A stretch of DNA of 64,000 nucleotides from Plantibacter sp. ME-Dv--P-122b (lineage in GTDB: Bacteria > Actinomycetota > Actinomycetes > Actinomycetales > Microbacteriaceae): positions 620,001-684,000 of the forward strand of contig NZ_JARVSC010000003.1 in the NCBI RefSeq assembly GCF_030209375.1, in the 5' to 3' direction. Under the pieces are notes generated by a model. The model was not told the DNA's origin. It did no database searches and saw nothing but the letters and a program-made list of their open reading frames with translations. How positions within the stretch are numbered: the stretch's first letter is position 1; every line of letters starts with the position of its first letter. Positions 60,953 through 63,820 of the stretch are shown here, in pieces. Made by a program: the position numbers and the translations under genes.

Positions 60953-61040
60953 GGAGAATTCGCCTAGTGGCCTATGGCGCACGCTTGGAAAGCGTGTTGG
61001 GTTAACGCCCTCGGGGGTTCGAATCCCCCATTCTCCGCCA
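60953..61040 (+). tRNA. tRNA-Ser (GGA anticodon)
   Basis: Acceptor stem GGAGAAT pairs with ATTCTCC; the D-arm is CGCCTAGTGGCCTATGGCG, and the anticodon arm ACGCTTGGAAAGCGT carries GGA, reading UCC/UCU. A long variable arm (GTTGGGTTAACGCCC) confirms a class II tRNA. The T-arm GGGGGTTCGAATCCCCC is followed by discriminator G and encoded CCA (61038-61040). It decodes Ser. Confidence 0.96.
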
Positions 61041-61050
61041 GCTCCACCAC

Positions 61051-61077
61051 GAACGCCCCGCCCACCGCGGGGCGTTC
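61051..61077 (+). terminator. Terminator after tRNA-Ser
   Basis: GAACGCCCCGC, loop CCACC and the perfect complement GCGGGGCGTTC lie 11 bp after the tRNA. TGCGTTT follows. A near-identical hairpin recurs at 61163-61189 inside the duplicated segment. Confidence 0.8.
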
Positions 61078-61125
61078 TGCGTTTCATGCTCTGCGCGCGG
61101 AAGATCACGCACAACACCCACAGCC

Positions 61126-61196
61126 GGGGTTCGAATCCCCCATTCTCCGCCAGCTCCACCACGAACGCCCCGCCTCGCGCGGGGCGTTCTGCGTTT
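61126..61196 (+). repeat. Duplicated 3' end of the tRNA-Ser gene with its terminator
   Basis: The 71 bp from 61014 (T-arm, acceptor 3' strand, CCA and hairpin terminator) recur 112 bp downstream with only a few changes in the loop and at the left edge. The rest of the tRNA is missing from the copy. Such a half-copy is the mark left by site-specific integration into a tRNA gene (attL/attR) or by slippage. No integrase is present nearby. Confidence 0.85.
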
Positions 61197-61226
61197 CCGG
61201 AGTCAACCCAAGTGACGTATTCCCGT

Positions 61227-61395
61227 GGCGCCAGCGCGGTGCGCTGACGCGAGCGCGGGTCACTCGCGTGAGCGCGGGTCTCCGGAGGGGCGCGGTCAGG
61301 GCTGTGCCCCGCGCCCGCGCCGAATGAACCCATCTCGGCTCAGCGCACCGCGCTGGCGCCGATTCCGCCCCTCTCACGTCAGCGCACCGCGCCGG
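61227..61395. repeat. Inverted-repeat element A, upstream of marR
   Basis: Perfect 21-bp arms at 61227-61247 and 61340-61360 (GCCAGCGCGGTGCGCTGA core) flank about 90 bp rich in GAGCGCGGGT blocks. A further partial copy of the arm follows at about 61377-61395. The related element B is at 63654-63820. The gap 61041-61451 otherwise contains only the tRNA remnant and the MarR promoter. Confidence 0.85.
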
Positions 61396-63653: not shown

Positions 63654-63820
63654 GCCAGCGCGGTGCGCTGACGTGAGCGCGGGTCACACGCGTGGGCGCG
63701 GGTCTCCGGAGGGCCGCGCCCACGTCCCTGGCCCGCGCTCACGCCGATTGCAGCGATCTCACGTCGGCGCACCGCGCCGGCACCCACACCACCGCGCTCG
63801 GGTCAGCGCACCGCGCTGGC
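63654..63820. repeat. Inverted-repeat element B, downstream of the MATE gene
   Basis: Perfect 19-bp arms GCCAGCGCGGTGCGCTGAC at 63654-63672 and its complement at 63802-63820 enclose about 130 bp that share GAGCGCGGGTCAC and GGGTCTCCGGAGGG blocks with element A. An inner arm-like copy lies near 63761-63780. The two elements bracket the MarR-MATE pair. Confidence 0.85.

Follow-up and report, generated by a model that had tools for sequence, protein, structure and literature searches.

A partial second copy of tRNA-Ser(GGA) in Plantibacter resembles compact, gene-less tRNA 3'-end repeats of related actinobacteria

Why does the 3' part of a tRNA-Ser(GGA) gene of Plantibacter sp. ME-Dv--P-122b appear a second time directly behind the gene? 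The window analysed here is a stretch of 64,000 nucleotides (contig NZ_JARVSC010000003.1, positions 620,001 to 684,000), in which ARAGORN finds this tRNA only. A first-pass annotation had noted a near-identical partial copy 112 bp downstream, had read the pair as attL/attR of a lost island and had suggested that the site may be an integration hotspot in relatives. The partial copy is confirmed, as 72 bp with a 40-bp spacer rather than the 71 bp and 41 bp first noted. The locus is laid out as follows.

60953..61040, + strand: complete tRNA-Ser(GGA) gene with encoded CCA (ARAGORN; Rfam tRNA, 54 bits at 60953-61037), identical in 7/7 Plantibacter genomes
61014..61085, + strand: copy 1, the T-arm, acceptor 3' strand, CCA and terminator of tRNA-Ser(GGA) itself (direct repeat D1)
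61051..61077, + strand: hairpin, presumed terminator of tRNA-Ser(GGA) (sequence reading; inverted repeat I3)
61086..61125, + strand: 40-bp spacer, the right part of which is sequence X (sequence; likeness to X of other genera)
61126..61197, + strand: copy 2, a partial tRNA-Ser copy with terminator, 96% identical to copy 1 (direct repeat D1; model R1, 56 bits)
61163..61189, + strand: second terminator hairpin with a different loop (sequence reading; inverted repeat I3)

A repeat search of the window returned the two copies as a direct repeat of 72 nt (61014-61085 and 61126-61197, 96% identity, spacing 112), a match that is not due to chance in our judgement, which is an assessment by eye and not a shuffling statistic. 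The copies differ in the terminator loop only, and the 27 nt that comprise the T-arm, the acceptor 3' strand and CCA are the same in both. The 245-bp stretch that contains the tRNA and the repeat has one match in its own genome at E<=0.001. The presumed terminator hairpin of the tRNA is unlisted by a consensus terminator scan, and the T-run after it is weak. A simple tandem duplication of one stretch does not match this layout, as the 40-bp spacer does not recur after copy 2. Borrowing of X from elsewhere in the genome was also rejected: with up to three mismatches allowed, its 22-nt end (61106-61127) has no further match in the genome, and the six other Plantibacter genomes yield a single three-mismatch match, fewer than the three obtained with the reversed control. 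The window also contains palindromic 19-bp repeats that form identically spaced sets of three at two places (61231-61395 and 63655-63819; 6 matches in the window against 0.02 expected). Exact 17-bp copies of this repeat number 22-52 per genome in 7/7 Plantibacter, commonly arranged in inverted pairs separated by about 105 or 145 bp, and they resemble REPIN-type dispersed repeats.

The same locus in the genomes of six other Plantibacter species is simpler: the tRNA-Ser 3' core is single and is followed by one terminator, with neither spacer nor island (6/6), and the flank after this sole terminator is the one that follows copy 2 in the window. The window locus is 112 bp longer, and since the single copy of the relatives runs into the same flank, either the window gained these 112 bp or the others lost them. 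A second tRNA-Ser(GGA) copy is thus present in 1/7 Plantibacter; another member of the genus (G004 among our genome handles) has compact copies at tRNA-Ser(TGA). Letters common to both terminators of the window, GCTCCACCAC, are unseen in the relatives, a hint that copy and original were made alike within this lineage. The comparison proposed at first pass, a look for islands between the copies in related genomes, therefore speaks against an island, with 0/6 other Plantibacter carrying one, and the spacer is also absent from all six.

Is the second copy peculiar to this genome? A double-copy pattern (two copies 55-115 bp apart) matched 23 of 398 genomes of the family; three of these are neighbouring full tRNAs, which leaves 20, with compact copies at Ser(GGA) in 17 and at Ser(TGA) in 3. 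The exact T-arm/acceptor core is present in 168/398 family genomes, and the double-copy counts from this search are lower bounds; together with G017, G095 and G250, compact copies at tRNA-Ser are found in 23/398 genomes and 15/85 genera. The copies lie in tandem, without room for genes, in units of 112 bp in the window and 45-112 bp in relatives. In G241 eight further copies follow the tRNA at a constant spacing of exactly 70 bp. When the pattern was widened to any tRNA, it matched 45/396 genomes of the order; inspection by eye showed compact copies in 11 of them, at Ser(GGA), Thr(TGT), Arg(TCT) and Leu(TAA), and one of the 11 is the genome under study, through an Arg-like pair described below. 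Of the 33 cases tabulated, 30 agree with the neighbouring unit in all 22 nt of the T-arm/acceptor, a figure biased upward because the search patterns behind most cases fix 10-11 of the 22 letters; the acceptor letters are left open or half open by these patterns and match the tRNA of the respective genome. Among the matches listed in an open-access literature search, no title concerned short tRNA-tail repeats in actinobacteria.

Two further observations belong here. The genome under study has two Arg-like tRNA 3'-part copies, 63 bp apart, at the end of another contig (L147; G000:C8:374818-374891); contig C8 ends before any whole tRNA appears beside this pair, and the array may have broken the assembly at that point. 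In a different family of the order, a shortened tRNA-like piece lies between two other tRNAs (L121, G613:C6:30438-30555; G653:C64:12186-12303).

What ties the Ser copies of different genera together is sequence X, the stretch that precedes the T-arm in most Ser(GGA) copies, is absent from the tRNA and is present at copy 2 of the window. Likeness of X across 12 genera scores 6.02 (shuffled 1.05, sd 0.36); downstream of the acceptor, the DNA scores -0.61, only slightly above its shuffled level (-1.32, sd 0.27). X is common to the Ser(GGA) copies of 11/13 genera, and in the per-genus scores g73 lies at the shuffled level (0.5) and g41 (2.8) and g50 (3.3) are low. Compared with 12 other genera, the X of the window has a mean of 5.25 and its shuffled copies 0.72. 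Five putative island flanks and four phage flanks score between -6.1 and -0.2 against X; these nine flanks are mostly less G+C-rich than X, so that the shuffled copies are the fairer control, and of the islands among them the integrase was checked in G304 only. The viral contigs contain no match to either of two exact X patterns or to the T-arm/acceptor core pattern, and X is absent before the core at the phage sites that match tRNA-Ser.

X resembles other copies more than its own tRNA (mean 0.42 against the latter). In G095 and G250 it begins as the variable arm of the host tRNA, with GAGTGAAAGC in tRNA and copies alike; in the window such a start is not visible, the score against its own tRNA lying at the shuffled level (-4.0; shuffled -4.2). 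Conservation of X as a hairpin is unsupported: when 31 upstream segments were folded as RNA and each was compared with 300 shuffles, the mean z was -0.32, with 7/31 below -1. A second upstream motif, CGCTGGCGCG, precedes the T-arm at L173 (G004), L160 (G381) and L175 (G140); two of these genera have it at tRNA-Ser(TGA) and the third at tRNA-Ser(GGA), so that it occurs at different tRNAs.

These features were captured in a sequence-only model, R1, built from 15 copies, of which the window copy is one; two of its rows (G392 and G046) join the X of one copy to the acceptor of the neighbouring copy, unlike the genome. At E<=1e-9, R1 found 32 places in 18 of the 398 genomes and 11 genera, all of them compact copies behind tRNA-Ser(GGA), in a search that scored the best 13 candidates per genome under strict filters and may miss distant copies or those with poor T-arms. 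The 18 genomes are the model's own 15, G031, whose letters are identical to model row G215 and which is therefore not an independent match, and, as new finds, G095 and G250, of a genus outside the model. Copies of the model's own genomes and of G031 score 45-59 bits and a decayed third copy in G321 scores 35, against 29-36 bits for tRNAs and 23-32 for island and phage sites. The Ser(GGA) copies of G358 and G140 (28-32 bits) and the Ser(TGA) copies (15-18 bits or no match) lack this X. In the window the match spans 61102-61150, joining X to copy 2, and scores 56 bits with its own row in the model.

Based on these observations, we lean towards reading the second copy of the window as a single unit of a compact repeat that is made of the tRNA 3' part and holds no gene, and not as an island scar. 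Each unit combines X with the T-arm and the acceptor 3' strand, in most cases also with CCA and in some with a terminator, and the units follow the tRNA head-to-tail; their recurrence, their tandem growth, an X common to genera and the tie to the genome's own tRNA are all apparent in the genomes compared. The window copy bears both marks of the compact copies with X, being preceded by an X like that of other genera and lying directly behind tRNA-Ser(GGA). It is not a typical array, which counts against this assignment, since there is one extra copy only and it includes the terminator. A unit would arise through local partial duplication of the tRNA gene, after which copy number could rise or fall by recombination or slippage between the direct repeats; gain and loss of this kind would account for a genome with eight identical units when many relatives have none. 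By analogy with the E. coli tyrT repeats, transcripts that read through the terminator could be cut at the tRNA 3' end of each unit; little RNA would be expected from copy 2 of the window, since a terminator separates it from the gene. Two features go beyond this scheme. X is not a plain tRNA copy, and duplication alone therefore fails to explain it; moreover, the 5' edges of many copies lie at integrase crossover sites, and local duplication gives no reason to expect this.

The copies at other tRNAs widen the picture. Thr and Arg copies extend back to the anticodon arm, and the base after the anticodon is C in 7/7 readable Thr/Arg genomes (five Thr, two Arg), all found without using that letter; an eighth genome, G425, has an unreadable loop and stands outside this count. 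The adjoining tRNA has A at this base in 6/7, the exception being the Arg-like pair of the genome under study, for which the tRNA is not seen. The base before the anticodon is G in the copy and T in the tRNA in 4/7. The change is shared by Thr and Arg copies and spans three families (f1, f8, f15), so that it is either convergent or very old. A search of the class with the Thr/Arg loop motif found it in 1/345 genomes, G878, of another family, where the five matches form a tandem array behind tRNA-Thr(TGT); the motif was derived from the arrays, so that G878 is one prediction borne out and not a rate, and it stands outside the 7/7. The loop motif also occurs in 2 viral contigs, in one within a complete phage tRNA-Ser and in the other in a stretch that resembles part of a phage tRNA, where ARAGORN calls none. 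BLAST of the Thr/Arg copies against phages returned 221-450 records, and the best eight of each are, at the level of annotation, mostly phage tRNAs or unannotated places. It is conceivable, and we put it forward tentatively and with more doubt than conviction, that the whole represents an undescribed class of actinomycete gene-less repeats built from the 3' parts of Ser GGA/TGA, Thr TGT, Arg TCT and Leu TAA tRNAs, with the same anticodon-adjacent change at Thr and Arg and a derived insert in 11 genera, and that it is held by selection as a source of tRNA-half-like RNA or spread as minimal units mobilised by integrases. The window alone is of modest interest; the recurrent class behind its second copy is more interesting.

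Could the pair nevertheless be a decayed attL/attR, left by an element that once sat in the tRNA and of which all but 40 bp were deleted? In a wider form of this proposal, the compact copies in general would be ancient att scars that were later tandemly duplicated. The tRNA-Ser(GGA) 3' end is indeed a target for integration. Among the matches listed for the 398 family genomes, copies at island-like distance on one contig occur in at least 4 genomes. In G304, 7.9 kb separate the tRNA-Ser from a second 3'-end copy, and a 395-residue protein with Phage_integrase and arm-binding domains, a tyrosine integrase, adjoins the tRNA. The copies are 65 kb apart in G181, 3.1 kb apart in G176, where the second is a longer part of the tRNA, and 13.5 kb apart in G210, with two further partial copies in between; read by eye rather than by profile search, the G210 stretch has no evident integrase and carries regulators and transporters. 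There (L100, G210:C1:1090500-1106500) four tRNA-Ser 3'-end copies, two with changed letters, split about 13 kb of genes into three blocks, which could be a stepwise accretion of islands. Arthrobacter phages (Richievirus) and Gordonia phages match the T-arm through CCA over 29-33 bp at 93-97% identity, and an annotated tyrosine integrase lies within about 2 kb in 3/4 of these phage regions, the fourth (phage Richie) being too short to show one. Because islands and phages use this 3' end, the early suggestion of a hotspot holds for the family, where the G304 island and the phages bear it out, and is not seen to apply in the genus, in which 0/6 other Plantibacter have an island at the site.

The edges of the copies point the same way. 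In Ser copies, exact identity to the tRNA starts 0-5 nt ahead of the T-arm core; in 4/6 Thr copies it starts 14 nt ahead of the core, immediately behind the anticodon. The T-stem and the vicinity of the anticodon are the two main crossover regions of tRNA islands in the table of the Islander paper (PMC4383910). That many copies start at these two regions is what keeps an origin as att scars in contention, and the lack of a counterpart to the spacer in relatives also accords with it. Several observations count against such an origin. Clean excision of an island leaves one copy, not two. Profile search found two Phage_integrase family matches in the host genome, both on contigs other than that of the window: one is above the XerD cut-off and lies beside a gene read as ParA-like from its ORF, and the other is best matched by XerC, below the XerC cut-off, beside a gene read as DprA-like in the same way. 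No tyrosine recombinases other than these XerC/XerD-like ones were detected in the host genome, and the three neighbour proteins searched (transglutaminase-type upstream, MarR and MATE downstream) include no mobile-element protein. The window pair does have a displaced 3' tRNA fragment downstream in the same orientation, as islands do; no integrase lies within or overlaps its interval, which at 40 bp is far from the 2-200 kb of the Islander filter (PMC4383910). No element occupies the site in the close relatives (0/6 Plantibacter; one is present in the more distant G304), and the flank of the copy is unlike the putative att flanks, the window X scoring 5.25 against the compact copies and the nine flanks -6.1 to -0.2. 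The exact X patterns are absent from viral contigs, and terminator letters common to both copies and unseen in relatives fit local duplication better. Taken together, the six empty relatives, the XerC/XerD-like recombinases and the dissimilar flank turn the attL/attR interpretation of the first-pass annotation into a rather unlikely one.

A third explanation is that the units are kept for a small RNA: the transcript that runs past the tRNA would be cut at each tRNA-like 3' end, and the pieces might bind tRNA-handling proteins or act as decoys, as analogy suggests. The layout is the same as that of the E. coli tyrV / rttR locus, X is kept across genera and the C after the anticodon is found in all seven readable Thr/Arg genomes. 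Weighing against these points are the missing hairpin signal in X, the sporadic presence of the copies (1/7 Plantibacter at tRNA-Ser(GGA)) and the terminator that precedes the window copy, and we regard this explanation as unlikely. Least probable is that we are dealing with tiny mobile elements of 54-112 bp, which a tyrosine integrase would move in trans and insert singly at the tRNA 3' end: the tRNA is left whole, many copies begin at integrase crossover sites, X is common to Ser copies of different genera and copies occur at several tRNAs, but the DNA after the tRNA end differs between lineages and so is not carried along, and 0/32 R1 matches (best 13 candidates per genome scored) lie away from tRNA-Ser.

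What are the implications of a compact repeat unit at this locus, and which known systems does it resemble? Displaced tRNA 3' fragments are a standard signature in genomic-island mapping; as short fragments recur without any element, a lone fragment should not be read as an island scar. The islands mapped by Islander (PMC4383910) likewise show a 3' fragment displaced downstream of its tRNA and oriented like it, and they differ from the window pair, which has neither an integrase nor an element between its copies. Islander rejects intervals under 2 kb (PMC4383910), and compact copies would therefore fall outside its lists by design. The attP-like stretches of the Arthrobacter (Richievirus) and Gordonia phages match this same tRNA from T-arm to CCA, and the DNA before their core lacks X. 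The closest likeness is in the E. coli tyrT/tyrV repeats (RtT RNA, rttR/tpr locus, RF00391), same-strand tandem units behind a tRNA, each ending in a tRNA 3' end; the window, with its one extra unit, is similar to them in layout only. MG1655 has three further occurrences of the final 19 nt of tyrV, spaced 178 bp apart, and one that lies 175 bp behind tyrT; the region is annotated rttR and tpr and includes an annotated ncRNA. The E. coli units thus measure 175-178 bp and repeat 19 nt of the tRNA, whereas the unit of the window measures 112 bp and repeats at least the T-arm to the acceptor end. The RF00391 covariance model has no match in the genome under study, E. coli alone of 14 controls being matched, so that the window copy is similar to RtT in layout and is not a member of that family. 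From the tyrT repeats of E. coli an RNA is released, the transcript being cut at tRNA 3' ends. If X and the anticodon-adjacent change reflect function, attaching small units to tRNA transcripts would be a more widespread arrangement, with the tyrT repeats as one example.
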